A DNA stretch of 64,000 nt from Labyrinthula sp. Ha (lineage: Eukaryota; Sar; Bigyra; Labyrinthulida; Labyrinthulaceae), in NCBI GenBank assembly GCA_015227615.1, contig JAALGZ010000010.1, positions 62,001-126,000 on the forward strand, given 5' to 3'. Below are positions 5,237-59,778 of the stretch, piece by piece (the first letter of the stretch is position 1; each line of letters opens with the position of its first letter). The position numbers and the translations under genes were made by a program. The notes under the pieces are model-generated. The model made no database searches and had not been told where the DNA came from. It saw nothing but the letters and a program-made list of their open reading frames with translations.

Positions 5237-5464
5237 TGTAATGGTTTGAAACCTTTTTTATGAATATCTCTTATTTATATTTCGTTATTTACATTTACAC
5301 CGCGCCACGTCATTGGTTTACATAGTATTTAGAGATACCCACTTTTAAGTTATTAAGGGTAACACAAAGAAGAACAAGCTTTTACTTTTCGTATTTACCT
5401 CTACACGACTGCTACTCACCGCGTCTAGAGAAGAGTATATTTACTTGACGGAAAACTCTCAATA
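5237..5464 (+). repeat. 5' LTR of element 1
   Basis: 228 bases, beginning TGTAATGGTTTG and ending CTCAATA. It pairs with 12047-12275 at roughly 95% identity by eye. A 14-base palindrome, AATATTGCAATATT (5461-5474), straddles the LTR end and the start of the internal region. Confidence 0.9.
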
Positions 5465-8400
5465 TTGCAATATTTATTTTTTTAGAAACGAAGTTGTGCG
5501 AGGTATTTGTCTTCTGTCAAAGAACTGATCTTGGTATTCACTAGCTATGGCTTCCTTGTTTGGATCTCCTAGTAATAGGGGAGATAATAATGAGGGGAGG
5601 AACTTAAATAATTCCCAGACAACCCGCTTAACAAAAGAGGTGTTTGAACAGCAGGCTAATCAAATGGCGGATATATTGGAGACACTAGTTACGTCTTTTA
5701 AAGATTTAGTTTGGTAAAACTGGATGAGTTAAATAGTTTGAATGTTGGAGATATAGAAGATTTTCTATTTCAATATGAAAGGCTTACTGAAGAACAGAAG
5801 AGCCTTATTTCTGTAGCTCAGAAGTTATCTAGAAAAGTATTTCAACACTTGAAATTTCTAGGAAAGACCGATACAGATCAAGACATCATTAAGTATTTAA
5901 AAGAAAAAGTTCAACGAGAGAAGACAAAAGATTTAAAATCTGCTGAAGATTTAATTAAAAAATATATTTATTTTAACGAAGATATTCTTGAAGAAGAAGT
6001 AATCGTTATTATGTTTAAACAAGTGGATGAGTTATTGAACATCATGCCACCAGGGGCTGAAATGAAGCCCAGAATTATTGCTGAAGCTATCTTCGAGAAA
6101 CTCCCTGACTATGTGTGGGTCAGAAAAGAGGACCTGAGGCTTAAACCAGAGTTGAAGCAGAAGAATAAAGATGCTTTAATGGATTATGTTCTCGATAGCC
6201 TACCACATCTCCATGTAAGATCTAGGTTTAAATCATCGAATAAGACGAAAACTAAGAAGCTGAAACTTAAGGTTAAAGTTGAAGCTGTATATAATATGGG
6301 CCAAGATATGCCAGCTGAGTTATTAACTACCAGTTTATGCACACATTGTTATGAATATGGCCATAAGGAACCTAAACGCTTTGCGAAAAGAAATGGGAAC
6401 CCGAAATCTGCTATCCCAGCGGAGCCAGAGTTAAGGTAAAAGTGGGAAAAATATAAGGAGAGAATAAGGAAAAGAAGAGCGGCGAAAAAACTAGCTGTCC
6501 ATGTTGGGGTCAATCGGATGGTAACATCTCCAAACCTAAAAGCCAACAAGATATTAATGGCAAAGAAAATATCGCTGAATCTGTGCCTTCTGGGCAGCTG
6601 TTGGAACCAGCGGCAGATATCGAGTTTTTACTGGTCAAAAGGCTGTTCGGAGAACTCTTTTTAACCCTAAAAACTGAAGATGATAAAAATTACAACAGTA
6701 CTTAAACCTAACCTGATCCCTGCTGGTCACGTTTATGATTATAGCGAATTGGGTGAGGATGCAGAAGTTGAAGTGTATATTGAAGAAGGTGGAGAAAAAT
6801 ACACAGCACTCTTAGACAGTGTAGCTTTTAAAAGTGCTATGGATTTGCGTCTCAGAAAATATTGTTCAAAGACGATCACTCTTGATAACCCATTTGCTAT
6901 AAAAGTTGCTGGAGGGAGGATTTATTGGGTATTTGAACTTGGTATTTTGGCCAAGGTTATTGTTTGTTTAGATGGTGGCTTCTACACTCTCACGAACGTT
7001 GAATGCATGCTCATGGATGTACCCCAATGGGATAATTTGATCATAGGTAATGATCAACTAAGAGCTCATGGGTTGGATCCCTTAACGTCTCTGAGGCAGA
7101 AACTGAATAAGAAGAAAAAGTTTAACGAAGTTCAGAGTGGAAACGTCCTTGAATATTGAGCTAGCTGGCTTGAAGAAACTCTGAAGTTAGAAGAGAAAAC
7201 TATTCAAGTTGATGATGCTTCAATAGAACCGAGGGGTGTATTTTATATTGATCAGGATGATGTTTTCTATGATGCTCTGTCTGACGATTTTTATTATGAA
7301 AAAGATATTTTCTATGACTCTTTAAATGAAAAAGAAACTCAATTTACATCTATCAATGAACTTATTTTGCCGAAAGAATTGATGAAGAAAGATCCAGTGA
7401 TTTTTTCTGAGCAAGATGATGAGGTTAATTTTGAAATAATAGATGAAGGGGCAAACTTAGATATAAGTTCAGAAGAAGATATAAAACGTTTAACTAATAT
7501 TTTAGAAGATAAAGTTGGGAGCTTAAATTTAAAGTATTTTGACAATGATTTAAGTAGGAAAGACGACCTTCTAGATCTATTGAAAAAAACAATGTGAGAG
7601 CATTTGGTGATTCAGAGTCACCTACTTCTCTCTCCAATTTAAATTCTATTGAGTGTGAACTCAAAGAAGGGAGAAGTGTTGGAGTTTTGAACCAACACCC
7701 CTTAGGATATGAACAGGAGAGCTTTTTATTAAAGAGAATCCAACAAATGTTGGATGTTGGAATTATTGAGGTTAATCCAAATCCTACAACGGCCATGAGT
7801 ACTTTAGTAGTACCAAAAAAAGGCCCTAAAAATTTTAGGATGGTTGTTGATTATAGGCCTCTTAACGATGCTACAAAAAAGTTACTAATACTTTACCTAA
7901 ATTAGAACTACAATTACACAGAGCCCAAGACATGAATTATTTTTCATCTCTTGATTTACTTTCTGGTTTTGACTATTTACGTTGTGACAAAACTGCTGGG
8001 AGGCTGTTTACCTTTGTAACTCCATGAGGAGTTGCCTACAGCCTTAAGGGTGCACCACAAGGTTCGTGCAACACCCAGGCTCTTTTTAGTATGAGGCAAA
8101 TTCATCAGGTACTAACTCCTGCTGGATTGTCGCCTAAAAATAGTATGCAGTGGATATATGACACTGTTCTTATATCTCCAACGTTTAAAGGTTTATTAAA
8201 AATATTGGGAAAAAATTAAAGCAGATACAGGCTCGTAACTTGAGGATTAGCATCCAAAAATGTAGTTTTATTGATAATAAGGCGACTTTTTGTGGAAGAG
8301 TTTTGAATGTCAAAGGATATAATTATGATATTACTTATGCTACAAAACTCTTAGAAAGAGTTAAGCCTCAATATATATACGAGCTTGCGCAGTTTGTGTA

Positions 8401-11400
8401 TACTGTTAATTTTTTATGTGGGATTATACCTGAGTTTTCTAGGATAAGAAAATTAGTACTTGGTGATTTCAAATTAGTTGGTAAATTAAAAAACCTTGAA
8501 AGAAAACGCTTATTAATAGAGTGGACTTCAGAAATGGAAGTGGATTTTATTGAACTTAAAGAAGCTTTGAAGAAAGCTCTAGTCAGCTCTTTGTGTTATT
8601 ATAACCAGAATGAAAACATCTATATTTTTGCTGATGCAAGCGACAAATATTGGAGTTTATATTTATGTCAAACTCCTGACGATGTTGAAATAGAGATCCC
8701 TCTTAAAGCCAGATATAGAGTTATTGCTCTTTATAGCGGAAGCTTTGGAGGCAGCCACTTGAATTGACATATTTATTCTAAGGAGCTTTACCCGATGGTA
8801 ATGGCTCTAAAAAAGCACCCTTATTATTTATTATTTAACTCTCATGAAAAAGTCTTATTCACTGACCACCGTAACTTGGCTGGAATCATTGAACCTAAAG
8901 AAGTTAAAACAAAACCTTATGCTAGTCGTTTGGAGAGATGGAGTGTAGACTTCATGAGCATAGGATTAAAAGTTTTCCATTTAGATGAGGATAGAAACAT
9001 TCCAGCCGACTGTTTGTCGTGCTGGATGAACCCTTATTATATTGAAGAGAGTGAAGAAGAAAAATGTGTTTCTAGAATAAGTAAAATACTTAGTATAAAC
9101 TCCTCTTGGGACGAAGCTGAATAATGGAAAACGTTGATTCTTATCACATTAGTATGAGACATCCAGTGCATGATGCTAAACCTCCTGCTAGTAATTGGCA
9201 AGTTATGGATGATTTATTTGTATTTAAATATCAGAAAAAAGATTTTCCTTCACCTACTGAAGTTCTAGAAGAAAATAAAAAAAATAGTTTTAACTAGAAG
9301 TTTAATTCCAGTAGTTGTTTGTCATGCTCATTTAGTTTTTAATCATGGGGTAGGAAAATTTGAATGGAATTATATAGTGAAGAATTATGTAATTAAAGCC
9401 GAAGATAAAGAGCTTTAAATAAAGCCATTACTAGATTTAGAAAGCAGTGTATGTCACTGCCAGAAAAATCTCTAATAGTAAGAAGACCCCTAAATATAAC
9501 CGAGTTTGGGGATAAAGCTCGCAGAGTTTTATATGCGGACTTTTTACATATCAATACCCATGGTTGGGTATTGACTTTGATTGATAGTTTGACAAGGTTG
9601 ACGTTATTAACTTATGCCAAAACTGCTTACACTGAAGTTGTAGTGGATGCTCTTTGGAAATGGCATTCACATTTTATTTTGGCTGATGAGTTTTTTCTAG
9701 TAACGGATCAAGGCAGTCATTTTGTAAATACAGTTTTAACTAAGTTTCTGAAAGAAAGTAATGGGTTACATAAAATGACTGCAGCTTAAATTAGTCAAAC
9801 AGCAGGAACAGTTGAAGTCCAAAATAAGTCTGTTTTGAAAAACTTAAGATCATTAGTGTCTGAGTTTGGATTAAAAGAGGATCAATGGCCTCGTATTCTA
9901 ACTTTAGTCCAAAGGTTTTTAAACTCTAATCCACTGACTTGTCGTGGATACCCTAACAAGTCTCCGTTTGAACTTATTTATGGCGAAGAGATGAAGTATG
10001 CATCAATAGGGTCTGGTAATTTGAAGTTGGGAGAAAAAGATTTTGATATTTTGAAGCAGAGAAGCGCAGAGTTACCTTAGAAAATAGCAGACTACCAAGA
10101 AACAGCATATAAAAAGGGACTCGAATATAGGTATGTTGTGAACAAAAGAAGAGGAAAGAGACTTACTCCCATTCAATTCAACTTAGGTGAATACGTTTGG
10201 TTATCGGAGAAAGGTTTAGGTAATATGCAAAAAGACAAAAGTCGTCCTAGATGGTCTGGACCTTATCAGTTAACGATGCAGATTTCAGAACACCTATTTG
10301 AAGTTAAAGATTTGATGGGAAATACGAAGATTAGACATACATCTTTATTAATGCCATTTGCCCCAAGCTCATTCTTACCATCTCCAGACACTACTGTAGT
10401 TTTTATCTTAGATAAAGGCAAACTAGAAATTGATTCTATTGTAGATTTAAAGAAACCGGAAGAAAACGAATTTTTAGTTAGTGTCAAGTGGAGAGGATTT
10501 GACAATGATAGAAATACTTGGGAAGCAGCAGTTATAATGTATGAAGATGTGCCATTGATACTTTTAAAATATTTAGAAGAAAATAAAAATAATATTCTTG
10601 TTAAAGAATTGGTGCAGTTTTTGAAGTTATTATACCATGAAGCTAAATATAGATCTGAATTGAACCGTGTATTTAGAATGGGACAAGCCCGTGAAAATTT
10701 TGAGGATTTAGTGCATAAGTTATTGAGTCAGAGAATAGTAGTTACTGCTGAAGGTTTGATGATTTAATATTCTTGGTCTTTGTTTGAAGCTTATACTTTA
10801 AAGGTTTTAGTTGCTAAATTTGGCATGGAAAACTTTGTTGAGTTTAAAAAATGGTTACCTGGGAAATCTAAGCAACAAATTTACAATCGCCTTCAAAGGT
10901 ATTTAAGAAGACAAAGCCTAGAACATTTGCATGGTCTCAAAGTTAATTTAGATGTGGTGAGAAAAAATAATTTAAAGGCTGGAAAATATTATTTAAAAAA
11001 TAAGAAGTCTCCGGATGATAGAATTAAATGCATGAAGAGATTCTTTAATGTGTGGAGATATGCTAAACAGCATATGAAAAATAATGGTAAGAACTTTAAA
11101 GTAAAGCTTGTAGTGTATGATGTATTTTCAATCGAAGGTTTGAAGCAGTTATATTCTGAAGTTTCCCAAGTTATTGCTGATGAAGGTACTTGGGATAAAT
11201 ACCCTGAGTACAAAGGAGATTTAACTGAGTTTAGACAACAGATTAAGTGGTGTATTAAAGGATATTCAAAACGTTTGCATGATGTTTCAGAAGGTTTTGA
11301 AGAACTCAAAGTTATTGTTAAAAATGAGTTTGGGGGAGTTGAAATCTTCATTAGAGGATACCAGTTAAAATGGTCCAAAACAATCAACATGGTTCATGCA

Positions 11401-12046
11401 GTTAATCAAGAACTTAATGTAGAGTTTTATATTTGGAAAAGACCACGTGGTTCGAGATTTATCAATAAGGACGTTCAAGATTTTGTTCTTAATCAGGAAG
11501 AGAGGCCAGATGTTTTAATTGTGGACCTTCCTTTTAAGATGTTTTCTTCTGATCCTGTAAGAGGACCTAAAGTTGAATACAATGTTTTGGATGATGCTAC
11601 TATTTTAAACTTGGATGTTAATGGATTAGCACCAAATAATATGTGGTTTGTATGGACTGTATTTAAGAAAAGAGAGTTAGTGCTTAAGTGGATGGCAAAA
11701 AATGGGATAAAATTTTAAGCAGACTCATTTGGGTTAAAGTTAATGAAGACGGAAGAATTTTATCTACACTTGGAAATGTTGCTGGAGATTGTACTGAAGA
11801 AGAGTTAATTGGTTTAAGAGGACAATTTCCTGATACTTTAGAAAGAAGATTTATAGGTAAATAAGTATTCTATGGAGTAAGAAGAGGAAATTCAGAAAAA
11901 ACAGTCGAACTTTACCAGATAATCGAGAACGTTTTCAATAATAATGCTGTTAAATGGGAGTTATTTGGAAGAAATAACAACCTAAGAAGAGACTGGTTGA
12001 CTGTTGGGAACCAAGTGAGTTTCTAACTTCAGAGATATTGGGGCAA

Positions 12047-12275
12047 TGTTACGGTTTGGTACCTTTTTTATGAATATCTCTTATTTATATTTCGTTATTT
12101 ACATTTACACCGCGCCACGTCATTGGTTTACATAGTAGTTAGAGATACACACTTTTAAGTTATTAAGGATAACACAAAGAAGAACAAACTTTTACTTTTC
12201 GTATTTACCTCTACACGACTGCTACTTGGCCGCGTCTAGAGAAGAGTATATTTACTGGACGGAAAACTCTCAATA
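12047..12275 (+). repeat. 3' LTR of element 1
   Basis: 229 bases, beginning TGTTACGGTTTG and ending CTCAATA, preceded by a purine-rich stretch (AGAGATATTGGGGCAA) that serves as the polypurine tract. It is followed by the CGCT target duplication. Confidence 0.9.
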
Positions 12276-17960: not shown

Positions 17961-18646
17961 TGTAACGTCTGCTAACATTCCTATAAAATATTCAGCTTCT
18001 TTATATGATATTACGTGGAGTTTTTGTTATATTTTGGTCTTGGATCAAGTGTTGGTATATAAGGTGTGTGTTTGATTGTGAAATGTTGTTGTACAGAGGA
18101 AACTAGGTGTTCGGGCGGTGTTTAATAGGTCCCTATAGGAGCTGTGAACCATTTGTGGGTGATTTTGATGTGTTTCTGGAGAGATATGATCGATTTGAGT
18201 GAATTGGGAACCTTATTTTCTGTCTTTTAGCATTCGTATTTCATGATAGTTCTCGCCCGTGATGAGACCCTGGGGTGGTTTGTTCACTGATGTTTTTATG
18301 CTATGAATTTACATTTTGTGACATTCGCTGATATAAATTTGAGATGAGATATCGTTAGTCACGATTGAGGTGCAATAACATTGAGCAGGGGTTTTAGTAT
18401 ATGTATTATATATGGCGTGGTATTGGAATTAGTTTGAAATATGATGTATTATACATATATGCTTGAAGTAGTTAGTGTAATATAACCGTTAAGAAGAAGT
18501 AATAAGAAAAGTTTGTTAAGAAAGAAAAAGAAAGAATATATTGTTGATTGTTTTATAAGAAGAGTTTGAGCTTACATTTATATTAAAACTATTGAACTTC
18601 CTGGGACGTGTAGCGTACATAAGTTATTCGCACGATAAACGCAATA
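17961..18646 (+). repeat. 5' LTR of element 2
   Basis: 686 bases, TGTAACGTCTGC to ACGCAATA. An 18-base perfect palindrome, CAATATTTCGAAATATTG (18642-18659), spans the LTR/internal border where a primer-binding site is expected. No TGG start typical of a tRNA primer site is present. Confidence 0.92.
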
Positions 18647-18742
18647 TTTCGAAATATTGAAAGTTTAATTCAGAAGTTTTAATTTGTTTGAAGATTTTAA
18701 GAAGTTTGAACAACGGAGGAGTTTTTAGGAAGATATATCGCT

Positions 18743-21700
18743 ATGGGCGAAAGACAAACTAATATGAACCAAATGTTTAAGGCGTTTGAGGGTATTTTAG
18801 TAAGATTAGATGAGAGGAACGCCAAGAGACAAGAGGATCTTTTAATAAGAATGGAGGAAAGAAACTCCAGAAGAAGTGAAGAGGTAACGAACAGGAAAAG
18901 GGAGATTATTCAGACGCTGACGGAAGAAAACAGAGTGAGTATGAATATGTTAACGAGTCGAATGGAAGGCTGTCATGCTAGGATCACAACGCTGGAAGAT
19001 CTTGATATGAAGAGCATGGAGAAGTTCATTTATGAAGTGGAGCGCCTCAACCCCTGTACTAGGAAGTTTATCTATTTGAAGGAAATGTTAGGAGAAGAAG
19101 TTTTTAAGAGGTTAAGCAATGCTGGCACTGTTGATTCAAACGAAAGTATTATTGGAGCGATCAAGGAAAGGATCAGAAGTGAAAGAAGTAGGACTGCGAC
19201 GAATGCAGTAGCTCTTATTGAAAAGTATGTGAAGTTCAACACTGAAATGATTGAAGAAGATGCGATAGAGGCAGTATTTCAAGATGTTGAGGAAGTTTTA
19301 ACCTATCTTCCACCTGAAGCAGAGAAAAAACCTAAAGACATCGCGAAAGCAATCTTGAAGTTGATGCCGGACTTTATGTGGGTCCGAGAGGATGATTTAA
19401 CTTTGAGACCGGAACTTAAAGCAGCGGATAGAACTGCGTTAAAGGCTTATGTTATGGGCTGTATCCCACCGCCTTACGCGAGGAAGTCCAGGGTTATGAA
19501 GAAGGAGAAAGGTCCGACAATAAAAACGCCAATGAATAAGACGAGGTTTGTGGTCAAGTCGCAGAAGCCTGTAGTTAGGAAGCAAAACCCGCCGCAGAAT
19601 ATTAAGCGTACACCTCTTTTGTGTACACACGAGTGGGAATACGGGCACACAGAGCCCTATTGTTATAAGAAGAAAGCAGGAGAACCTGCTAAACCCCATC
19701 CAGGTGAAGAAGTTTTGAAGAAGCGGATGGATGAATATGTGAGAAGAAAGGAAGCTGAATTAATATCAGCAAAAAGAGTCCAAGAAGCCGAAGTGCTTGC
19801 CACGAAAGCAGAAAAACTTTTTGGAGCAAAAACTTACAGGTGTTGTCAGAACATGCCACCTGTAAATTGTGATAAGATGAATAAGTTTGTTGAGAAAACA
19901 GAAGTAGGAAATGTAAAAGGTTATGGAGAAACTAGAAAAGAAGCACAGAATAAGGGGAAGTGTTTGAAAGTGAAGGAGAAGAAGGAAGTGTCAAACAGGG
20001 CTATTATTGAGGTTGATATAAATGGATCTAAATATAAAGCTTTGCTGGATTCTGGAGCCTTCAAAAGCACTATTCATCGGAACCTAAAGAAACATTGCAG
20101 TAAAATAAAGAAGTTAGAGAAACCTTTCAGGGTGCAAGCCGCCGGAGGTGCAATATATCCGGTTTGGGAAGTGGGACAGTTTCCGGAGATCACTGTAGTA
20201 GATCAAGATGGGCATCGCGGTTTTGTCTTTTACGAGGTTGAAGCCCTTATATTAGACGTCCAAGAGTGGGACGATCTAATCCTAGGAAATGAAATACTGT
20301 CAAAATATAACTTAGGCCCTTTTAGTGCCCTGAAGAGGAGAATGGAAGAAGGGAAGAATATGGAGGACAAACCCACGTTCGCGAAATGGTTTCTGGATTA
20401 TGTAGGAGAGGAGGAAAGTGAGATGATCAATGTTAAATCCTTCTACTCTGGAATGGATGACTCTGCTCCGAAGAATGTGTTAAAGGTACCGCCTTATATA
20501 TTTGGGGCAGACTTACCTGAGCAAGAGGAGTTTATGGATTTGGAGAATATTGATGTAGGTTTAGGTGCTGCAAAAAGTGGACAGAGTGATGATAATAGGA
20601 TGCGCAAAAAGATTAGAGACAAAGTGGAGGCAATAGATGTAGTTCATTTTTCTTCCTCACCTGCGTGGAAAACGAAGTTTGTGGAGTTATTTGAAAGCAA
20701 CTTTAAAGCTTTCGGTGATGCAGAGAGCTCAACTCAACTTTCTATTATTACCCCAATAAGATGTGATTTACTACCAGGAGAAAGAGTGGGGATTCAAAAA
20801 CAGTTGCCATTAGGACAAGAGCAGGAGGACTTTTTGCATAAACGTATTGCTCATATGGAGAAGGCGGGTATTATTTACCCGAATAAAAATCCAACTACTG
20901 CTATGTCAGTGTTGGTGGTTCCAAAGAAGGGACCGAAGAAGTTCAGATTGGTCGTTGATTTTAGACCGCTGAACAAAATAACTCAGAGGGTTAATAATAC
21001 ACTCCCGAGGATAGAGTTACAGTTGAACCGCGTTAGAGGGAACAAGTTTTTTGCAGGTTTTGACCTTTTGAGCGGTTTTGACTATCTTGCTTGTGAAGAG
21101 CAAGCCGGTCAATATTTTACTTTTACGACCCCCTGGGGAATGGCCTACTCTTTTTTAGGAGCACCCCAGGGTTGGTGTAATACACCAAGTCTTTTTTCTA
21201 TGAGACAAATAGGTGAAGTATTAACACCTATTGGTCTCTGGCCTCATAAAGCTCTACAGTGGATCGATGACTCCATCATCATGGGGGAGTCGATTAACGA
21301 GCTTTATTCAAATGTTGAAAGTTTTTTACGTCAAATACAGAGCAAGAAGCTAAGGTTGAACATAGACAAGTGTGAACTTGTTGCGAACAGCCTGGTATTT
21401 TGCGGCAGAAGTTTTGATAAGGATGGGTGGAAATATGATATACAGTACGCTCAAGGATTATTGAATAGGGTTAAACCTGTGTATTTGCACGAGTTAGCCC
21501 AGCTGATTTATACAGTAAACTTTATTTCCCCTACTATTCCGGGGTTTAGTAGGATGAGAAAAACAGTTCTAGGTTCACATAAAATAGGAGGAAAGATGAG
21601 AAACTTGGAGAAGAGGAAACTTAAAATTATTTGGGATGAAGAAATGGAGATGGCCTACACTGAGATGATTGAAGCTATCAAGCAAAGCATGGAATGTTCA

Positions 21701-24259
21701 ATAGGATATTATGACCCTGGGCAGAATATATATTTATTCACAGATGCTAGCGAGTTTTTCTATTCTCTTTTTATCACTCAAAGTGCAGAAGCTGTGGATG
21801 TTTATGATCCCTTCAAATCTAACTTTAGAGTTATTGCAATAAACTCGGGCGGGTTTGCTGGGTCTCAAATTAATTGGCATATTTCATGCAAAGAGTTATT
21901 TCCAGTCCTTATGGCTATCAAAAAATATCCCTTTTATTTACGTTTTAACGCGAAGGAAAAGATCTTATTTACAGATCATAAAAACTTAGTCAACATTATT
22001 AATCCTAGAGAGGTTAAATTAAAATCTCATGGATCTAGACTAAGTCGTTGGGCTCTTGACTTTATGGAAATAAACCTGCAGGCTTATCACTTAGAAGGGT
22101 ATAAAAACATACCAGCGGACTGTTTGTCTCGCTGGTTGAACCCTAAATATCATGATGAAGTTGAAGAGGTTATTATTCAAAGAGCTATTTTTAATTCAGA
22201 AGATCAGGATGATGAAATAGAATTCTGGAGAGTTATTGATGAGATGAATGTTTCTCCCAGACATCCTGGTAGTTTGGACTTAGCTGGAAAAGGATGGGAA
22301 ATAATTGATGACAAACTTATTTTAATGTTCCAAAGAAGAGATATACCTGAATTAGAAGAAGTGAAGAAGATGGATGGGAAAATGTATGTGACAAAAAGTA
22401 TATTTCCTTTAGTGATCATGCACACTCATTTTATATTTAATCACTCTTCAATCAAGAAAAAAATTAATTTTATTAAGGAGAACTATTATTTTGAGAAAGA
22501 TATTTTTAGTTTATTTAAGAATGCAATTGTTGTATTTCATCGACAATGCATGCATTGTCAAAAACCTAGTCTTGTGATTAGGCGTCCGCTAAATGTAACA
22601 GCGTGGGGCAGTAAGGCTGGCGAGGTCTTACTGTCAGATTTTTTATATATTAATAAAAAAGGATGGATTTTAACCTTAGTAGATTCGCTTACTAGAACTA
22701 CTATTTTAAAATATTGCGATAAAGCTACTAGTGATAAAGTAGTTAGCATTTTATGGGACTGGCATGCCCATTTTCAGTTATTGCCTGCTTTCACTTTAGT
22801 TACAGACAGGGGTTCTCATTTTACCTCGAAAGTTTTGGAACAGTTTCTAAAGAAATCTGGTTGTGCACACCAGTTTAGTGCTACTTATGTTAGCCACACC
22901 GCAGGTGCGGTAGAAGTGCAGAATAAAACTATTTTAAGAAACCTTAGATCCATAGTAAGTGAGTGGGGCTTGGGGGATGAAGAGTGGCCAGATGTTTTAC
23001 CAATGGTCCAAGCTTTTATTAATCAAAGCCCACTCACTTGTAGAGGTATGGAGATGAGCCCGTTGCAACTCATGATTGGTGTAGGAAAGAATGGATCACC
23101 GCTTGGGGCAGTGTACAAAGAGATGGAGAAGCAAGATTATAATAAATTAAAAGAAGCTTCTTTGGACTTAAGACAGAAAATTATTGAGTTGCAGATGAAG
23201 GCTGATAAGTGTGGATTAGAGCACAGGATGAAGGTGAATAAGAGAAGGAATATGAGGGGAAAGTTGAAACCTATTTACTTTGGAGTGGGAGAGTTTGTTT
23301 GGCTTTCTGAAAAAGAAGCTGGAGAAGGTAGACGAGACAAGTTGAAGCCTCGCTGGTGTGGACCGTATCAGGTTATTGAATGTATTAGCGAGCACATTTA
23401 TGTTATTCAAGATGTGGATGGTAAAAAGAAAACTCGTCACTCTATGTTATTAGCACCTTACGCTCCAATAGGTTTTTTACCTAGCCCTGTTACGTCTTTG
23501 GTTTACAGAATGGACAAAGGTAAGTTAGAGTTGGACAAGTTGATTAAGCTTGTGAAAGATGATGAAGGGCAGTTGAAGTTGTTATGTAGGTGGAGAGGTT
23601 TTTCTGAGAATGATGATACTTTTGAACCAGCTCTTACTATTTTTGAAGATTTACCTTTTCTTGTTGTTGAGTTTTGCAGAGATAATAAGTCTTTAGAGAC
23701 GGTACAGTTGATGGACTTTTTGATGACAGTATACCCTGACTCAGAATACTTAGGACAGATTGAGATGCAGAAGAAGGTCTTTGCAATGAGTGAGAATGAG
23801 GTTAGTAGTTTTGAAGAGAAGCTTATTTTTGGTAAAATAATTATTGATGAAAAGGGTAACTGGAATAGGCTGAATTGGTCGACATTTGAATTACAATCAT
23901 TAAGAGTTGGATTATTGAGCAGAGGTTTTGGAAACTTTGAAGAACTGAAGCTTTTTATCCCTGGAAAAAGTAAACAACAAATATATACTAAAATACAAAG
24001 AACTGTGGGTAGACAAAGTCTAAACATCTACCATGGATTGTATTTAGATCTATTTGCCTTGAGACAAGATAACTCAAGATGGAGAAGTGAAGATTATTTT
24101 GTGCAGAAGAAACCTTTATCTGAAGGAATGAAGCTATTGAGGAAGTATTTATTTAAATGGAAGTATGTTAAAAAGAGTGTTGAGAATCAGAAACAATATG
24201 GGTCTCTTTTTATAGAAGTTTATAATTTGACTTACAGTGGGGGGGTGTTAAGATTATGA
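18743..24259 (+). CDS. Gag-Pol polyprotein with C-terminal chromodomain and SANT-like domain (element 2)
   Basis: 1,838 residues in one frame. Order: coiled-coil-like N terminus and gag (18.75-19.6 kb), a zinc-knuckle-like CTH..GH..C region (about 19.62 kb), aspartic protease with LLDSGAF (about 20.04 kb), reverse transcriptase with VVDFRPLN (about 20.95 kb), GAPQGW and the WIDDS catalytic core (about 21.26 kb), RNase H with FTDAS and NIPADCLSRW (21.72-22.13 kb), an integrase HHCC region (about 22.42-22.56 kb) and DDE core in SDFLYI, VTDRGSHF and AVEVQNK (22.63-22.92 kb), a chromodomain (RWRGFSENDDTFEP, about 23.52-23.66 kb) and a Myb/SANT-like segment (PGKSKQQIYTKIQR, about 23.87-24.07 kb). 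The chromodomain probably guides integration toward methylated-histone chromatin, as known for chromoviruses. The SANT-like part may bind DNA or histone tails; that is inference. Confidence 0.92.
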   Translation: MGERQTNMNQMFKAFEGILVRLDERNAKRQEDLLIRMEERNSRRSEEVTNRKREIIQTLTEENRVSMNMLTSRMEGCHARITTLEDLDMKSMEKFIYEVERLNPCTRKFIYLKEMLGEEVFKRLSNAGTVDSNESIIGAIKERIRSERSRTATNAVALIEKYVKFNTEMIEEDAIEAVFQDVEEVLTYLPPEAEKKPKDIAKAILKLMPDFMWVREDDLTLRPELKAADRTALKAYVMGCIPPPYARKSRVMKKEKGPTIKTPMNKTRFVVKSQKPVVRKQNPPQNIKRTPLLCTHEWEYGHTEPYCYKKKAGEPAKPHPGEEVLKKRMDEYVRRKEAELISAKRVQEAEVLATKAEKLFGAKTYRCCQNMPPVNCDKMNKFVEKTEVGNVKGYGETRKEAQNKGKCLKVKEKKEVSNRAIIEVDINGSKYKALLDSGAFKSTIHRNLKKHCSKIKKLEKPFRVQAAGGAIYPVWEVGQFPEITVVDQDGHRGFVFYEVEALILDVQEWDDLILGNEILSKYNLGPFSALKRRMEEGKNMEDKPTFAKWFLDYVGEEESEMINVKSFYSGMDDSAPKNVLKVPPYIFGADLPEQEEFMDLENIDVGLGAAKSGQSDDNRMRKKIRDKVEAIDVVHFSSSPAWKTKFVELFESNFKAFGDAESSTQLSIITPIRCDLLPGERVGIQKQLPLGQEQEDFLHKRIAHMEKAGIIYPNKNPTTAMSVLVVPKKGPKKFRLVVDFRPLNKITQRVNNTLPRIELQLNRVRGNKFFAGFDLLSGFDYLACEEQAGQYFTFTTPWGMAYSFLGAPQGWCNTPSLFSMRQIGEVLTPIGLWPHKALQWIDDSIIMGESINELYSNVESFLRQIQSKKLRLNIDKCELVANSLVFCGRSFDKDGWKYDIQYAQGLLNRVKPVYLHELAQLIYTVNFISPTIPGFSRMRKTVLGSHKIGGKMRNLEKRKLKIIWDEEMEMAYTEMIEAIKQSMECSIGYYDPGQNIYLFTDASEFFYSLFITQSAEAVDVYDPFKSNFRVIAINSGGFAGSQINWHISCKELFPVLMAIKKYPFYLRFNAKEKILFTDHKNLVNIINPREVKLKSHGSRLSRWALDFMEINLQAYHLEGYKNIPADCLSRWLNPKYHDEVEEVIIQRAIFNSEDQDDEIEFWRVIDEMNVSPRHPGSLDLAGKGWEIIDDKLILMFQRRDIPELEEVKKMDGKMYVTKSIFPLVIMHTHFIFNHSSIKKKINFIKENYYFEKDIFSLFKNAIVVFHRQCMHCQKPSLVIRRPLNVTAWGSKAGEVLLSDFLYINKKGWILTLVDSLTRTTILKYCDKATSDKVVSILWDWHAHFQLLPAFTLVTDRGSHFTSKVLEQFLKKSGCAHQFSATYVSHTAGAVEVQNKTILRNLRSIVSEWGLGDEEWPDVLPMVQAFINQSPLTCRGMEMSPLQLMIGVGKNGSPLGAVYKEMEKQDYNKLKEASLDLRQKIIELQMKADKCGLEHRMKVNKRRNMRGKLKPIYFGVGEFVWLSEKEAGEGRRDKLKPRWCGPYQVIECISEHIYVIQDVDGKKKTRHSMLLAPYAPIGFLPSPVTSLVYRMDKGKLELDKLIKLVKDDEGQLKLLCRWRGFSENDDTFEPALTIFEDLPFLVVEFCRDNKSLETVQLMDFLMTVYPDSEYLGQIEMQKKVFAMSENEVSSFEEKLIFGKIIIDEKGNWNRLNWSTFELQSLRVGLLSRGFGNFEELKLFIPGKSKQQIYTKIQRTVGRQSLNIYHGLYLDLFALRQDNSRWRSEDYFVQKKPLSEGMKLLRKYLFKWKYVKKSVENQKQYGSLFIEVYNLTYSGGVLRL

Positions 24260-25119
24260 TGGATGAAATGATTGCTAATGAAAACAAGAATTTGAGAAGT
24301 TTTCCAAGAATAACAGGAACACGAGAAGAAGCTTTACTATCCCTAAAAAATCTATGGTCAAAACTTAAAAAGCGTGAAAAAGAAGTTGAAAAAGAAATAT
24401 CCAAAGCAGAAGATTTAATTTCACAAAATATTTTAATGCCAACTAAGAAAGCTGATTTATTATTTTCTGAAGGTGAAACAAATAATTTAGTAAAAGTGGA
24501 AAGTGAAAAGTGGAATTTTATTGTTTATCTTTGGAAAATACCTGAAGGGTCATGTTTTTATGCTGGTAAAGTTGAGGAGTTTTTGGTTAGCCACAATAAG
24601 AAATATGATGTAATAGTGGTTGATCCACCTTGGTATACTTTTTCAGCTGACCCAGTTAGAGGTCCAGCTGTCAATTACAATGTAATGAAGGATTTTGACA
24701 TAGTAAACTTGAATCTCAAGAGAGTGATGAGTAACACAATGATTTTTGTCTGGGTGATTAGAGGAAAAGAATATGTAGTTGAACAACTTTTTGAAGCTAA
24801 TGGAATTAAGAAGTTAGGTCGTTTAGTTTGGATAAAAACAAATGGCAAAGACAAAATCGTTTCTACTTTGGGAAACGTCACAATGAAGTGCACTGAAGAG
24901 TGTATCATTGGAGTTTATAATTCGTTTCCAAAAACTTTAATTCAACGCAATTTTGGTAAAGAAGTATTTTATGGTAAGCGTTCTGGCAACGCTCAGAAGC
25001 CAATTGAATTTTATGAGCTCATTGAGGGTAATTTTGAGTCAGATGTGACCAAGTTAGAATTATTTGGACGTAAAAATAATTTGAGAAATGGATGGTTAGT
25101 GGCTGGAGATGAGCTTTAA
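24256..25119 (+). CDS. MT-A70-family adenine N6-methyltransferase (element 2)
   Basis: 287 residues. The catalytic motif DPPW lies at 24622-24633, followed by MIFVWV, LVWIKTNGK, EECIIGVY, KPIEFYELIE and the closing KLELFGRKNNLRNGW, the order and spacing of the MT-A70 superfamily (METTL3/METTL14/METTL4 relatives), which use S-adenosylmethionine to methylate adenine N6 in RNA or DNA. About 90 charged residues precede the domain. The frame starts at the ATGA that also ends the gag-pol frame. Elements 3 and 4 carry the same domain after the same SANT-like segment, so it is a fixed cargo of the lineage. Substrate (element RNA, cDNA or genomic DNA) cannot be told from sequence. Confidence 0.9.
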   Translation: MMDEMIANENKNLRSFPRITGTREEALLSLKNLWSKLKKREKEVEKEISKAEDLISQNILMPTKKADLLFSEGETNNLVKVESEKWNFIVYLWKIPEGSCFYAGKVEEFLVSHNKKYDVIVVDPPWYTFSADPVRGPAVNYNVMKDFDIVNLNLKRVMSNTMIFVWVIRGKEYVVEQLFEANGIKKLGRLVWIKTNGKDKIVSTLGNVTMKCTEECIIGVYNSFPKTLIQRNFGKEVFYGKRSGNAQKPIEFYELIEGNFESDVTKLELFGRKNNLRNGWLVAGDEL

Positions 25120-25138
25120 TTGGAAGCTGAAGGGGCAG

Positions 25139-25824
25139 TGTAACGTCTGCTAACATTCCTATAAAATATTCAGCTTCTTTATATGATATTACGTGGAGTT
25201 TTTGTTATATTTTGGTCTTGGATCAAGTGTTGGTATATAAGGTGTGTGTTTGATTGTGAAATGTTGTTGTACAAAGGAAACTAGGTGTTCGGGCGGTGTT
25301 TAATAGGTCCCTATAGGAGCTGTGAACCATTTGTGGGTGATTTTGATGTGTTTCTGGAGAGATATGATCGATTTGAGTGAATTGGGAACCTTATTTTCTG
25401 TCTTTTAGCATTCGTATTTCATGATAGTTCTCGCCCGTGATGAGACCCTGGGGTGGTTTGTTCACTGATGTTTTTATGCTATGAATTTACATTTTGTGAC
25501 ATTTGCTGATATAAATTTGAGATGAGATATCGTTAGTCACGATTGAGGTGCAATAGCATTAAGTAGTGGTTTTAGTATATGTATTATATATGATGCGGTA
25601 TTGGAATTAGGTTGAAATATGACGTATTATACATATATGCTTGGAATAGTTAGTGTAATATAACCGTTAAGAAGAAGTAATAAGGAAAGTTTTTTAAGAA
25701 AGAGAAAGAAAGAATATATTGTTGATTGTTTTATAAGAAGAGTTTAAGCTTACATTTATATTAAAACTACTGAATTTCCTGGGACGTGCAGCGTACATAA
25801 GTTAATCGCACGATAAACGCAATA
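25139..25824 (+). repeat. 3' LTR of element 2
   Basis: 686 bases, same ends as the 5' LTR (TGTAACG, CGCAATA), directly after the polypurine stretch and followed by the GATA target duplication. Confidence 0.92.
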
Positions 25825-31254: not shown

Positions 31255-31258
31255 ATAG
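31255..31258. repeat. Target-site duplication of element 3, left (ATAG)
   Basis: ATAG here and at 42167-42170. Unit 1 has the empty site once (GTTAGATAGGAATG, about 12583). Confidence 0.85.
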
Positions 31259-38045: not shown

Positions 38046-38063
38046 TAATAAGGATGGGGCAGT

Positions 38064-38264: not shown

Positions 38265-38306
38265 AAGTTTTTGGGAAACGGAAAATTTGGAAACAAAGAA
38301 ACCGTT

Positions 38307-52966: not shown

Positions 52967-52970
52967 ATAG
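52967..52970. repeat. Target-site duplication of element 4, left (ATAG)
   Basis: ATAG here and at 60041-60044, the same site as element 3. Confidence 0.85.
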
Positions 52971-53227
52971 TGTTATTTAGAGTTTGAAATACGAACTGAA
53001 ACAAATCTTTATTACTAGCTGTTCAAAAACTTTGAAATATGAGTCCCTTGAAATAAGCGGTTAAGCAAATTAAGAGTTTAAGAGAATATAAAAAGAAAAT
53101 TTATTACTTTATATTTTATTCTACTTTTACACAGCAAACTAATCTGAGAACAGGCCGATACAGTCGTCCTTTTTAAAGTCCGTAGAATTTGTAAAAGAAG
53201 TTTCTTTTCTTGGACTATAAACGAATA
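52971..53227 (+). repeat. 5' LTR of element 4
   Basis: 257 bases, TGTTATTTAGAG to CGAATA. Palindrome GAATATTGATCAATATTC at 53223-53240 spans the border. Confidence 0.88.
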
Positions 53228-56200
53228 TTGATCAATATTCCCTGTGGCTTGATATTTTCAAAGATTTAGAGAATGTCTGGAGTAGATCAAAACGAGCCTA
53301 TGCGTCCTTTGGATCAGAAGCAGATGCTGGCTCTTTATGAAAGTATGCAGAAGATCTTAGATTCAACAAGAAGGGTTATAGAAGCTTTGCAGTTAAGTTC
53401 TAATGAAAGGCAATTGAGTAACATTACGCAGAATGGTGCGATGATTAGTCAGGATTTCAAGGTCGATGATTTAAAAGTTCTCGAAAGAAAGAATATAGAG
53501 AAGTTTATCTATCAATATGAGAGGCTGTCTTTACAACAGAAGAGAGATATTAACTTGACGCAATTCGTAGATTTGGATCTTTTTATTCACTTGCGACGAC
53601 TAGATGTTACTAGGACTAATGAAGGTCTCGTGGATTATTTAAAGATCCTATTGTTAGAAATGAAAGAGCAAGCTTTGGAGGAAGCCGAAATTATGATTGC
53701 CAAACATGTGAAATATAACTTCAAACTACGGGAAGAAGATGCGATAAAAATCCTTCTTAGTGAAGTGCAGGAGATCATTAAGTTGCAACCTTCCACTGCA
53801 AAACTCAATAAGAAGAAGATCACGTTAGCGATCTTCGCTAAATTGCCTAAATAAATCTGGGTAGAGGGTAGCAGGCTCAGCTTGAATCCTGTTTTAACCG
53901 ATGTTGACCATGTACGATTACAACAATATGCGCTGGAGTGTTTGCCTCCGCTGTTTGTAAGAAATGAGATGAAAAAACGAGTCAACTTTAAGAAGATCCA
54001 GTTAGGAAAGTTCAAAGAAAGTGCCCCTATCGAGGTGAATGAGGTGAATACTAAGGGAGATAGGAAATCTCACTCTCACTTCAAAAAGCAATCTTCCAAT
54101 GATGAACCAGACTTGTGTAACCATTGTTGGTTTTATGGACATAGAAGATTTAAGTGTTGGATGCGGTTAAAACTTATTAGGAATGGAAATAACAATCCAT
54201 CCTCGCAACCTAAGCCAGATGGAGAGGTTTTAAGGAAGAGATTGCTAAAGCGGAAAGAGAATAAGAAGAAGGGCCGGAAGAGTAATTTTAAGAAACCTGT
54301 CGAGAAATCTACGTTTGCATCCAATGAAGTGACGCCGGCTAATGAAGGCGCAGTTGAGGATGTAGAGACTGACATTATTGAATTTGTTCCTGCAGGGTCA
54401 GTCGATGAGATATTTTTAAGTGAATGTACCGATGTAGCAAATGCAGAAGTGTGGGATGTAGCGGAGAATGAGATTAATCATGTTGAAGCTGAACTTGTTT
54501 TAGAAACCAGAAAGGGTCTGGTGGTGGTGGACAGTATTTTAGATTCTGCAGCTAGGAAAACCTCGGGGGAAAGGAATTTATTTGAAAAGTTCTGCTGGAA
54601 GATAGAGGATATCAAGAGGAAGACATTTGTGAGAGTGGCCTCTGGGAACTTGTATCCCGTTTTTAAAATTGGTCATTTATTACCCTCGGTAAGGATTCCA
54701 GGGTTCGGAGATTATTCGCTGGGACCCGTGGCAGTGTTGCTAGTTAAACAAATGAATAACTGGACAAAGCTTCTAATAGGAAAAGAGGTTCTAAAACTCC
54801 ATGGTCTTGATCCTACACAGATTCTAGCCCGACGATTAAGGAACGCGGAAAATGGAAGATCTTATAAGCTAACTGAAAAAGTTTAGGAATCAGTGGAACC
54901 TTTCAAAGAAACATGCGAAGTGAATGAGTGTATTACAGTAGAAGGAGTTTATTTAGCGAACTGGTTTAAAAGCAAAGTGTTCGGAGATATTGAATTTGAT
55001 GTCGTCAGTACAATGGCGGTTAATCCGCGTGTATTTAGCGAACCTGGTATTGAGAATCCATTGGAATTGCAAAAAGGAATGGCAGAAGCATTTGCAGTGG
55101 AAGAAAATAAAATAAATTTTGAAGGAGGTGCGTGGCCAGAGCCAGTGGTATTTAATGCTAGACATGATGCAGAGCTAGAGGAGTTGACTGGTGTCGGAGA
55201 AAATTTAGAGGTTACCAGAGAAGCAGATTTAATGAGATTGAAAGATTTGCTGAAAGGAAAATTAAAGGAAATACCTGCTCAAATATTTGGTGAAGATAAG
55301 AAGTTAAAAATGGAATTTGATGACTTGATTTTACACCATGTAGCCGCTTTTGGCGATGATTTATCCCCAACTCAATTATCTCTTCTAAAACCTATAAGAC
55401 GTTCTTTAATGGAGGGAAAATCAGTGGGAGTTTTTAATGCGATCGCCCTTGGTATCGAAAAAGAGGAGTTCATGAAGAAAAAAGTGGACCAAATGATAAA
55501 AAACAAGATTGTTGAGGTTAATGATGACCCAACATCATGTATGAGAGCTTTTGTTGTTCCAAAAAAGGACCTAAAAAATACAGAATGATAGTTGATTTCA
55601 GGCCATTAAATGCCGTTACGCAAAAGGTTGTTAATAACCTACCGAATATTGATCTACAGGTCGCTAAGATAAAAGGAAACACTATTTTTGGATCATTCGA
55701 CCTGTTAAGCGGGTTTGATTATTTACCAACACATCTTAACTCGCAACATTTATTTACCTTTATAACATCTTGGGGTGTGTCTTACTCGTTTAGAGGACCC
55801 CCCCCCCCCCAAGGTTGATGTAATACCCCGTCTTTATTTTCTCAAAGGGTAATTACACATGTTTTGAAACCTGCATCTCTTTGGCCTAGTCATGCTTTAC
55901 AATGGATTGATGATACAGTTTTATTTGCGTTGGATGTAAGAGCATACATGGCTTTATTCAGAAGTTTTTAAAGGCTATTATAGATAAGAGATTGAGGTTA
56001 AATATAGGGAAATGTGAGCTGATTGCTCAGAGTGCAGTATTTTGTGGGCACAAGTTGACAAAGGATGGTTATCGTTTAGATGACACTTACTTAAAAAAGT
56101 TAATGGAAAGACCAAAACCTACCTAGGTGCATGAATTAGCACAACTGATTTATTTAGGGAACTGGGTCTCGAAGATGTTACCGGGTTTTTCGGAGTTAAG

Positions 56201-59200
56201 AAAAACAATGACCGGGGAGTTTATTATTTACGGAAGACTCAAGAAGTTAGAAATAACAAAGGTACTCTTGGAATGGAGCGAGGAAATAAATCATGCTTAC
56301 GAAAAGTTAATGAAGGAGGTTAAATTGGCTTTCTCTAATACATTAGGCTACTATGATCAGAAATTAGATCTGGTTTTATTTGTGGATGCTTCGGAATTTT
56401 ACTGGAGTTATTTTATTTGTCAAACATCTGATGCAGTTAAATTAGAATTTCCAATGGATGCTAACTATGATGTGATTGCTATGGCCTCAGGTACGTTCAT
56501 AGATAGTTCCTTGAACTGGCATATTTCTTCAAAGGAATTATTTCCAGTGGTGATTGCATCACAGAAGCATTCTTATTTTTTGAAATCAAATGAGAAGAAG
56601 AAGATTCTCTTCACGAACCACAAGAACTTATATTATATTTTGAATGTAATAAAAGCGTCTAGAAAGTCTTATTCTGAAAGGCTGACGCATTGGAGCTTGA
56701 TTTTTCAAGATATTTGTTTGGAAGTACATCATATTCCTGGAAAGCAGAATGTAGCTGCCGATATTCTACCTCGTTGGCTTAACCCTGAATTTGATAAGGT
56801 GGAAGCTGATGAAGTGTTAGTTGCAGTTGCAACTGTAGAACACTTTAACGTGCAGCATTTCTGGGAAAAAGTGGATGAACTTCATGCTGGTTTGCGTAAC
56901 ATAGATTTTACATTGAAATATGGAGACACCTGGCCCGAAATGGATGAATCTTTTTGTTTAAGTTTACAATGGAAAGATCTAAAGTTCAAAAAAAATAGTT
57001 TGAGAAGATATAAAAATAAGTTGGTGGTAACAAAAAGTTTGATTTTGCCAGTGATTGTTCATACACATCTGCGCTTCAACCATGGGGCAGCAGATCAGGA
57101 AAAAATGGATTTCAGCTAATTATGTTATGCACTCTAAAGAAGTAAAAAATATTTATGGAAGCTACGAAGAAATTAAGAAGTCAGTGTTTGCATTGTCAGC
57201 GTCCATCGAAAGTTATAAGGAGACCTTTAGCGATTAATGAATTGCCAAGTGAATGTAGAGTAGTTTTAATGTCGGATTATTTGTATATTTCGCCAGAGGA
57301 AGGTTATGCGTTGACTTTAATAGATGCGCTGTCAAGAGTTACTTTATTGAAGCAGTGTAAGAATGCCAATGTAACAAATGTTGTGAATATTTTATGGGAA
57401 TGGCACTCCCACTACGATTTAGATGACGATTTTATTTTGTTATCTGACAAGGGTTCGCATTATGTAAATGCAGTTGTAGATGCTTTTGTTAGGCAAAGTG
57501 CAGTAAGTCAGAAGTTCACGGTGGCTTATGCTCCTTACACCAATGGAGCCGCAGAAATACAAAAAAAGCAGATTTTGAAGAATTTGAGAACCCTACTTTC
57601 AGAATATAATTTAAAGTCTGAGGATTGGCCTGAGGTATTAGTACAGGTACAATACTATCTTAATTCGAAGCCTTTGAGGAGTAGAAATAATCTTACACCG
57701 TTACAGATTTTGTTGGGTAAGAAACCTAGAAGGGATCCGGTGGGAAGAAAGCCGAATTTAAAATTGACATCGATTCAATTGAGTAAACTTAAGGAAGTTT
57801 TGTTGGAGCTAGAAGGAAGGATAAGAGAGTACCAAGAAACGGCTTTTTCATTCGCTGAACGATCAAGACAATACGCTAATGCTTTATATAATAAGAAATA
57901 CAAACTAACTCCGATGCATTTTCATGTTGGAGAGTTTGTATTAGTTAGTAAACCAAAACAAGGTTCGAAGGTTAAACCTCAATGAACAGGACCATTTCAA
58001 ATTATTCAAACATTAGGGTCGTATTTATATTTACTGAAGAATTTATTTGGGGATGAAGAAGAGGTACATGCATCTAGAATGATGTTTTATGCTCCATCAC
58101 ATTTCTTACCTTCTGCAAAAACAAAGACTTATTATTTAAATGATTCAGAGAAACTTGAGATTAAGAAGTTGATTAAGATCAAGAAAAAGGATGATGAATA
58201 TTTTCTGTTAGTTCATTGGAGAGGGTTTCCACTAGAAGAGTCAACATGGGAACCAGTACAACAGTTATTTGAGGATCTGCCGAGCTTAGTGGTTGATTTT
58301 CTATTAAAGAATAAATTCAGTGGAATGAAAGAATGTCTAACTCGTTTACGATTGGCAAATCCAGAAGCAGAAATATGGAGTGCAGATGAATATAATGTAG
58401 ATCTTTGTGATTTGCATCTCACTGACAAAGAGTTAGATGATTTTTTAAATTTCGAACCAGTCAGCCAGTTTATGATTTCTATGTTTAATCCAATTTTACG
58501 TTGGAACAAAATCAAAGTTTACATCTTGAAACAATGTATTTTGAAGTTTGGATTTTCTAAATATGAGAAATACGCTGAGTTTCTCAAGAATAGACCAAAA
58601 AGACAGATCTACAGTCAATTGCAGCGCCTGGTAGGTAAACAGGCTATTTCTGTTTACTCGAATTTACGACTCGATATGGATGAAATACGAAAAGACAATA
58701 TTAAATCTCATGGGGCTAATTATTTTATTGAGAAGGAGTTTAATGGAGAAACCCATTTATTCAAGTTACGAATCTTTACTGCCATGCGTTATGCAAAAAT
58801 GCATAGATTGAATACAGAACGAGCTGAAAAAGTTGATATAATGAAGTATTTTAATTGCAGTTCGGCTGATGGTATTGCACAGTTTATAAAATTTATGGAA
58901 GAAAAAGGTGAAACAGCATCCTTTCCTCTTGTAAATTGGCTTAATGTTGATAGAGAAGTCCAATGTTGGAAAAGGAAATTCAGAGAAATTAGCAGATTCG
59001 AAGCGGCAATGGCGAAGAAGAAAATAGAAGTTGTTAGGGCTGTTGATGCAATAAGAGATGATTTGCAATGTGATAAACTGGTGCCCGATTCTAAACATGG
59101 TGTTGATACAAAAAGAACTAAATTGACGAATTTGTATGAGTTTAGAAAGGAGAATTTTATGATGCAGCATTGGATCATACATACTAAGGTGAAGTTCTTC

Positions 59201-59778
59201 CATGGCGATGTAAATGATTTTATTAAAAATTTTGATGGTGGTGTTTTTGAAGTTGCACATTTGGATCCTCCGTATCGATTTATGGCAAAGAATCCAATTA
59301 GAGGGGCAGCTAATTTTTATGATACTATGCCAGACCATGATTTAAGGAAGTTGGACTTTACGAGACTAATGAAAAATACTATTGTTTTTTTCTGGAACTT
59401 TCCGAGTAAGAAGTCTTTAGCTATGGATATTTTTAAGAAAAATAATATTAAATACATGGATCACTTGTTGTGAATTAAACTTTCCGCTAAATGGAAATTG
59501 CGATCCACGTTTGGAAAGCTTACTCAGAAGTGTAGTGAAGAACTACTAATCGGTGTCCATGGGAAGTTGCCAGATGCTTTGAAAAATAGGAACTTTGGTA
59601 AAGAATGTGTCTTCGCAGAAGTGGTAGGCAATAGCTGTAAACCAGAGAAGTTCTATGAAATTATTGAAGCGCGGTTTGAAAAGCAAGCTAAAAAGTTGGA
59701 CCTCTTTAGCAGAAAAAATAATCTCCGTTTAGGATGGTTAGCTATAGGGAATGAGCTCTAGTAATAAGGATGGGGCAG

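Follow-up and report, generated by a model that had tools for sequence, protein, structure and literature searches.

The retrotransposon-borne methyltransferases that we found described (PMC5890265) are either writers of 5-methylcytosine (5mC) or Dam-like enzymes. Here we analysed a 64,000-nucleotide stretch of the genome of Labyrinthula sp. Ha (the window, which lies within contig C2 of an assembly of 50.8 Mb in 153 contigs) and its element 2, a long terminal repeat (LTR) retrotransposon whose coding region ends in a eukaryotic enzyme of the putative N6-methyladenine (6mA)-writing type together with a predicted DNA-binding subunit. KnitGypsy-Dnmt3 of Klebsormidium nitens (de Mendoza 2018, PMC5890265) is similarly an LTR Gypsy element, present in several copies, with a methyltransferase inside the Pol polyprotein that is under purifying selection (Ka/Ks < 0.2 there), but its enzyme is the cytosine methyltransferase Dnmt3, whereas the enzyme here appears to be adenine-type, close to AMT1 and accompanied by a p1 subunit. 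The C5-methylase domain (PF00145) that characterises the Gypsy-Dnmt3 type did not appear in Pfam scans of the window's frames. DIRS elements with Dam-like N6A methylases (cited in PMC5890265) also bear an adenine methyltransferase, but join a tyrosine recombinase to a bacterial Dam-like enzyme, whereas the elements here are gypsy-like, with an rve integrase and a eukaryotic MT-A70 domain; Pfam scans of the window's frames returned these two and neither the Dam nor the phage-integrase families.

The SymbioLINE-Dnmt and SymbioDIRS-Dnmt3 elements of Symbiodinium (PMC5890265), which number in the hundreds there, likewise carry DNA methyltransferases, and congruent reverse transcriptase (RT) and DNMT topologies were reported for SymbioDIRS, as we observe for RT and methyltransferase here, but their enzymes are cytosine enzymes and their classes are the long interspersed nuclear element (LINE) and DIRS. 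Ectocarpus Sola1 (PMC12477816) pairs a DNA-binding ParB domain with a 4-methylcytosine/6mA methyltransferase in a transposon, but it is a DNA transposon and the protein is prokaryotic-type, encoded by a separate gene on the other strand. Outside transposons, the MTA1/AMT1 complex of Tetrahymena (MTA1, MTA9, p1 and p2; PMC9852454) has the same AMT1-type catalytic domain and p1 Myb/homeobox-like domain, but as separate proteins in a heterotetramer, whereas here they are fused to the chromodomain and integrase of a retrotransposon Pol. Searches of the open-licence PMC literature turned up no account of a retrotransposon with MT-A70 or p1 in the titles, abstract openings and passages returned. A preliminary description of this locus knew of no earlier adenine-methylating LTR element of this kind, which needs qualifying given the Dam-like adenine enzymes of DIRS and the Dnmt3 of Gypsy elements (PMC5890265).

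Element 2 and its methyltransferase module

Element 2 (17961..25824; all of its features lie on the forward strand) is a complete LTR retrotransposon, delimited by its LTR pair, its target-site duplication (TSD), and an empty site in a duplicated host unit. Self-BLAST placed the 5' LTR, with terminal letters TGTAACG...CAATA, at 17961..18646 and the 3' LTR at 25139..25824, with 96.9% identity over 686 bp. The TSD is the 4-bp GATA and the empty counterpart of the site is a boundary of host repeat units near 47537-47542 within the window, which bears out the earlier placement of the element inside target duplications. The frame list and Pfam together define a Gag-Pol frame of 1849 codons (18710..24259) that holds an aspartic protease at the usual place before RT (20006..20293, residues 433-528; PF13650, E 7e-7), RT (20918..21406; PF00078, E 1.9e-18), RNase H (21713..22066; PF17917, E 4.7e-12), an integrase core (22613..22888; PF00665, E 4.3e-10), SH3, and a chromodomain (23534..23653; PF00385, E 6.5e-4) whose 20 bits do not reach the Pfam cut-off of 25.1. 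The chromodomains of L031 and L045, two copies from elsewhere in the genome, also fall below that cut-off, and those of elements 1, 3 and 4 of the window and of L049 exceed it. The order protease, RT, RNase H, integrase with flanking LTRs is a Ty3/gypsy-like layout, found likewise at other loci.

Between this Pol chromodomain and the 3' LTR lies the methyltransferase, as had been noted, in a stop-to-stop frame at 24226..25119 (first ATG at 24256; domain at 24604-25113). It covers the entire 172-position PF05063 profile at 92 bits (E 5.4e-26; cut-off 23.9), with the motifs DPPW, QKPIEFYELIE and KLELFGRKNN in MT-A70 order. In phmmer comparisons it scored 105 bits to Tetrahymena MTA1/AMT1, 54 to METTL3 and 44 to METTL14, and the enzyme of L031, from one of five further families (A to E) found in the genome, scored 136 bits to MTA1 and 112 to METTL3. 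By blastp, the lead of Tetrahymena AMT1 over human METTL3 was 29-49 bits for elements 2 and 3 as well as for families D and E, and 19-26 bits for family A. On these scores the methyltransferase of elements 2 and 3 and of families D and E is best classed as AMT1-like, and that of family A leans towards AMT1. The 38 copies in which bit scores to host AMT1 and to a METTL3-like protein were compared (29 nearer AMT1) were hand-picked from lists of 101 and 122 scored matches and are not used as evidence. An AlphaFold model of the element 2 methyltransferase frame (predicted local distance difference test score, pLDDT, 78; predicted template modelling score, pTM, 0.70) recovered MTA1 chains of the MTA1 complex as all seven best Foldseek matches by E-value, with alignments of 202-270 columns against roughly 190-198 for METTL3. 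The longer MTA1 alignments may include a modelled helix at residues 33-66, which could be comparable to the N-terminal helix of MTA1 that holds p1 and p2 (PMC9852454).

Upstream of the methyltransferase, a Myb/SANT-like domain follows the chromodomain, as read in three elements of the window (1, 2 and 3) and in copies from families A-E. A profile built from eight copies gave 81 bits (E 3e-22) to the p1 subunit of the MTA1 complex, with other Myb proteins next at 47, and the domain of element 2 alone (23870..24079) found p1 as its sole PDB molecule (E 2.7e-5). The domain of L045 had p1 as its best PDB match (E 7e-17; one unrelated chain followed at E 0.27), as did that of L031 (E 1.5e-12), and both matches reach p1 residue 157-158, past the Myb fold. 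By homology, then, the domain is predicted to be p1, which serves the eukaryotic DNA-6mA complex as its DNA-binding subunit; neither the presence of this domain nor the AMT1-like nature of the element 2 enzyme had figured in the preliminary description.

The end of Pol is thus ordered chromodomain, p1, AMT1-like enzyme. This module shares one frame with the upstream Pol domains in element 3 and in those copies of families A-C that are open, whereas element 2 has two overlapping frames, Pol and methyltransferase, in different phases, with a G-run (24239-24245) close by. The G-run suggested a frameshift or termination-reinitiation at the junction, which we do not favour because two annotated relatives that span it, P0001 and P0006, continue through as gene models (models rather than DNA, that of P0006 having two exons by its label). 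Families A-C (L031, L045, L046) also have the protease signature VLLDSGA, invariant in the alignment, between the p1-like domain and the methyltransferase, where Pfam protease matches in L031 and L045 stay below cut-off. In L045 the Pfam scan found no protease before RT, its sole, sub-cut-off match coming after p1, and the Pol order of this copy is rearranged, with the protease between p1-like domain and methyltransferase. A predicted structure of the L045 p1-protease-methyltransferase piece was poor (pLDDT 47) and was not used.

Copies across the genome and shared descent with Pol

A genome search with PF05063 gave 354 first-look candidates, and all of the best 150, which were scored, exceeded the Pfam cut-off, many in open frames of about 1800-2660 codons. 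The genome thus has at least 150 MT-A70 matches, far more than chance would give, and the concern that these domains might fall outside the MT-A70 family can be set aside. Control searches of the same genome gave two C5-methylase (PF00145) hits and one Piwi/Argonaute hit. A p1-like match lies 358-998 bp upstream on the same strand of at least 94 of the 150 methyltransferase matches, compared with 1/150 in the downstream control; this count is a lower bound, since the lists that were cross-matched hold the best 150 of 354 (methyltransferase), 328 (p1) and 549 (integrase) candidates. A listed integrase was found upstream of 36/150 methyltransferase matches (control, 0). Conversely, among the best 150 integrase matches, a p1 match from the lists lies downstream of 36 and a methyltransferase match from the lists likewise downstream of 36, and elements without the module therefore probably exist. 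Neither neighbour was seen, among the matches listed, for 41/150 methyltransferase matches, which include the host AMT1 gene and elements 3 and 4.

Twenty loci were fetched, picked from the best 30 of the 150 methyltransferase matches, and 19 of them carry RT, integrase, SH3/chromodomain and methyltransferase together; the other, L037, is without RT. Clear LTR pairs flank 18 of the 20 with 93.5-100% identity (L047 has a longer direct repeat, L037 none), so the cargo is found in young and older copies alike. L047 (C132:834180-844170) shows two near-identical methyltransferase-bearing ends 7.2 kb apart, that is, tandem elements.

L037, at C91, is the host AMT1 gene, with 250 bits to MTA1 and neither an RT nor an integrase match within 10 kb. 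Two host p1-like genes (C1:1284467 and C100:135979) stand apart from the elements, with no integrase upstream nor methyltransferase downstream among the matches listed. They score 112 and 103 bits to Tetrahymena p1, compared with at most 73 for element copies (best 150 of 309 scored), and may represent a duplicated partner. A METTL3-grade gene was not found in the genome: the METTL3-like query P0008, searched exon-wise with 101/342 candidates scored, had host AMT1 as its best match (132 bits), and P0004, a near relative of P0008, reaches 424 bits to human METTL3. The same search gave MT-A70 matches outside the PF05063 best 150, at C73:460522-461229 and several other places, one of which extends upstream; these could represent additional elements, or host genes of the AMT2/5, AMT6/7 or METTL14-like kinds.

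Searching 5.8 billion proteins with the 589-residue p1-to-methyltransferase part of L045 gave three EukProt matches and no others; two of them combine RT, integrase and MT-A70, and the third has integrase and MT-A70. Two more EukProt proteins, in which a chromodomain accompanies MT-A70, came from other protein searches, which also returned METTL3-like proteins and proteins of bacterial type from outside EukProt. The element-like EukProt proteins have MAKER-style names and may derive from this organism or a near relative. P0003, a 449-residue AMT1-like protein on a JGI metagenome contig of 1596 bases, has a DPVRGPA stretch like that of element 2 and groups with the element 2/3 clade (97/93) in the methyltransferase tree, where its branch is long, so relatives of the elements may occur outside this organism.

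Three clades, namely (A,B,C), (D,E) and (elements 1-4), were recovered in the methyltransferase, RT and integrase trees, the first of which was built without the broken elements 1 and 4, L047 (which has a stop) and the near-copies L011, L042 and L015. The (D,E) join is weak in the RT tree (59/40), and L033 groups with family A1 in the RT tree (81/89) and with A2 in the methyltransferase tree, the inner order otherwise agreeing. Among eight family representatives, methyltransferase distances correlated with those of RT, RNase H, integrase and chromodomain (r 0.91-0.92; permutation p 0.0006-0.001), which upholds the shared descent with Pol proposed earlier. The ratio of non-synonymous to synonymous substitution (dN/dS) of the methyltransferase was 0.06-0.35 in 13 within-family pairs; these came from 21 pairs tried (between-family pairs being mostly saturated), share members (L034 is in five), and use copies without stops, which favours constrained copies. 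The pair L034/L011 was not counted because it repeats L034/L039, L011 and L039 being the same place. The enzyme is therefore under purifying selection, somewhat looser than that on RT, and the methyltransferase is a maintained, standing cargo of chromodomain-bearing Ty3/gypsy-like elements. We regard the anatomy, homology and maintenance of the module as practically certain.

These histories also bear on the number of captures. Forcing all retrotransposon copies into one clade of the methyltransferase tree cost 10 log units (p-value of the approximately unbiased test, p-AU, 0.047), joining them with AMT1 to the exclusion of METTL3 was not rejected (p-AU 0.126), and joining them with METTL3 to the exclusion of AMT1 was weakly disfavoured (p-AU 0.047), in a test made after a tree had been seen and on fewer rows, P0003 and four bacterial rows being left out. 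The best tree sets AMT1 beside families D/E (43/67), and its root is not resolved. Such a tree, in which AMT1, METTL3 and the three retrotransposon clades are unresolved and a single retrotransposon clade is weakly disfavoured, would fit a history in which several gypsy lineages sharing one host acquired AMT1/METTL3-like genes independently of one another. We nevertheless consider this unlikely, as it would need the same pair of genes to arrive at the same place before the LTR, with homologous p1 in all three clades and with agreeing RT and methyltransferase histories; the order chromodomain-p1-methyltransferase common to all three clades therefore argues for one capture. The earlier suggestion that capture preceded the splitting of the families thus stands within each of the three clades, where independent read-ins from the host no longer fit, but in the methyltransferase tree the three do not form a group that leaves AMT1 outside.

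Elements 1, 3 and 4 and the repeated host DNA of the window

The other LTR elements of the window also lie on the forward strand. Element 1 (5237..12275; 229-bp LTRs of 94.8% identity, TSD CGCT) has a chromodomain at about 10426-10548, a p1-like domain from 10774 and broken MT-A70 remains at about 11506-12017, where DLPF replaces DPPW and the domain is spread over two frames. Element 3 is traced from 31257 to 38264, where a LINE interrupts its 3' LTR, and its frame at 35430-38045 holds integrase, chromodomain (36441-36581), p1-like domain and an open MT-A70 (37530-38036) with the motif DPPY. Element 4 (52969..60040) is a segmental copy of element 3, with one stop in its MT-A70 (59246-59755). 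Related methyltransferase domains do therefore sit at the same place in all of these elements, as previously proposed, but the domain is open only in elements 2 and 3. A single site, with TSD ATAG, in duplicated host DNA (12.4 kb, 95.7%) holds both element 3 and element 4, which therefore represent one insertion event copied by segmental duplication, rather than the two insertions first assumed.

The window as a whole consists of roughly three copies of an approximately 11-kb host unit, 92-96% alike, which therefore provides an empty counterpart within the window for the insertions of element 1 (CGCT), element 2 (GATA) and elements 3/4 (ATAG). LTR elements occupy different sites in different copies of the unit, such that full and empty sites can be compared. 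A long frame of the host unit recurs at 13444-15315, 43028-44899 and 60902-62854, and Pfam assigned the first of these, the one scanned, to Roc/Ras. The insertion inside the 3' LTR of element 3 (38264-42097) is a non-LTR retrotransposon with endonuclease and RT frames and a TSD of about 12 bp.

A proposed role for the module and its alternatives

Two parts of the host 6mA machinery kept while the families split suggest that these elements write their own 'active' chromatin mark. Because the element 2 enzyme appears AMT1-like, DNA is the likelier substrate, and we judge it probable that DNA rather than RNA is methylated. The module would be produced together with Pol, in families A-C perhaps being cut free by the protease-like stretch between p1 and methyltransferase, and would reach the nucleus either alongside the integration machinery or out of Pol after its translation. 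There it would methylate ApT adenines on element cDNA or on the fresh insertion, with or without host partners (AMT6/7, p2). Gypsy chromodomains can steer integration to particular chromatin, and at the place to which the chromodomain had brought the element, the 6mA mark would maintain activity of its 5' LTR and transcribed body. AMT1-bearing eukaryotes methylate ApT, and their 6mA lies at the start of transcribed genes with H3K4me3, trimethylated lysine 4 of histone H3 (PMC12695648); the mark would keep the element active because 6mA in these eukaryotes marks permissive, H3K4me3-associated DNA. Both p1 and p2 are required for activity of the MTA1 complex, and p1 contributes to DNA binding (PMC9852454). 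Our overall interpretation, which we hold with moderate confidence, is of a chromodomain Ty3/gypsy-like lineage with a captured DNA-6mA writer module (p1 plus an AMT1/MTA1-like methyltransferase) that marks its own DNA with 6mA at ApT. That this self-marking creates permissive chromatin we consider evenly balanced, and we propose more tentatively that two 6mA-complex subunits, coupled to a chromatin reader and an integrase, form a self-guided writer of a permissive mark by which each new copy would resist silencing.

Several observations weigh against this interpretation. In the species surveyed transposable elements are not enriched in 6mA and AMT1 knock-outs had limited effects on transcription (PMC12695648). 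Tetrahymena activity needs MTA9 and p2, and a second MT-A70 domain was not seen in the window's elements. Constraint on the methyltransferase is also looser than on RT, for which dN/dS was 0.06-0.09 in six pairs. The methyltransferase of L045 (family B) scores 112 bits to MTA1 and 111 to METTL3 by phmmer, and by blastp AMT1 leads METTL3 by only 1-2 bits in families B and C, so that the domain alone is not clearly nearer AMT1 than METTL3 in these two families. The METTL3-like P0004 even exceeds host AMT1 by 9 bits in family A and by 8 in family C. Structurally, METTL3 fits the element 2 model tighter over its shorter length (template modelling, TM, score by target up to 0.79; root-mean-square deviation, rmsd, 2.4-3.4 A) than MTA1 chains do (TM score by target 0.67-0.72; rmsd 3.3-6.3 A). 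Lastly, all nine fetched family A copies (L031-L036, L038-L040) have DPAW rather than DPPW.

This altered motif, together with the weaker purifying selection in the methyltransferase than in RT, would suit a module that tethers rather than writes, with p1 and MT-A70 docking on host AMT6/7, p2 or AMT1-marked promoters so as to steer integration or import, and catalysis secondary. The MTA1 complex acts as a heterotetramer in which p1 takes part in DNA binding (PMC9852454), which again would accommodate docking. The motif aspartate is nonetheless retained in 9/10 aligned sequences, the exception being the annotated copy P0001, and DPAW is likewise present in two bacterial-type MT-A70 proteins (P0014 and P0016) and therefore need not mean lost activity, and we rate a tethering role as rather improbable. 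Alternatively the enzyme could write N6-methyladenosine (m6A) on the genomic RNA of the element, affecting its stability, packaging or escape from RNA sensing. The MT-A70 family includes METTL3 and METTL14, scores to METTL3 and AMT1 are about equal in families B and C, and element RNA is present wherever Pol is made, but AMT1 is the nearer of the two for elements 2 and 3 and for families D and E, the tree tests weakly disfavour a grouping with METTL3 without rejecting one with AMT1, and the linked p1 is part of a DNA complex. Moreover, as the search described above found no METTL3-grade gene (101/342 candidates scored), the m6A pathway may be missing, and we consider an RNA writer improbable.

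If the module does write 6mA on DNA, the mark might instead serve against host attack, in that 6mA on cDNA or insertions would mimic host 'self' DNA and shield it from nucleases or silencing. Silencing machinery is plausible given the host AMT1 and p1-like genes, the two C5-methylase hits and the Piwi/Argonaute hit, but we know of no 6mA-sensitive defence in eukaryotes and hold such protection to be very doubtful.

With at least 94 linked p1-methyltransferase copies in one genome, these elements contrast with the published view that MT-A70 families have been relatively static since early eukaryote diversification (PMC12695648). Because open and broken modules share the genome, and even duplicated host DNA with empty sites, they offer a natural system for testing if permissive chromatin results from 6mA, or if 6mA only follows transcription. 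Should self-marking prove true, 6mA, an ancient mark of active genes thought to be evolutionarily static, would itself be a weapon in the arms race between elements and host.

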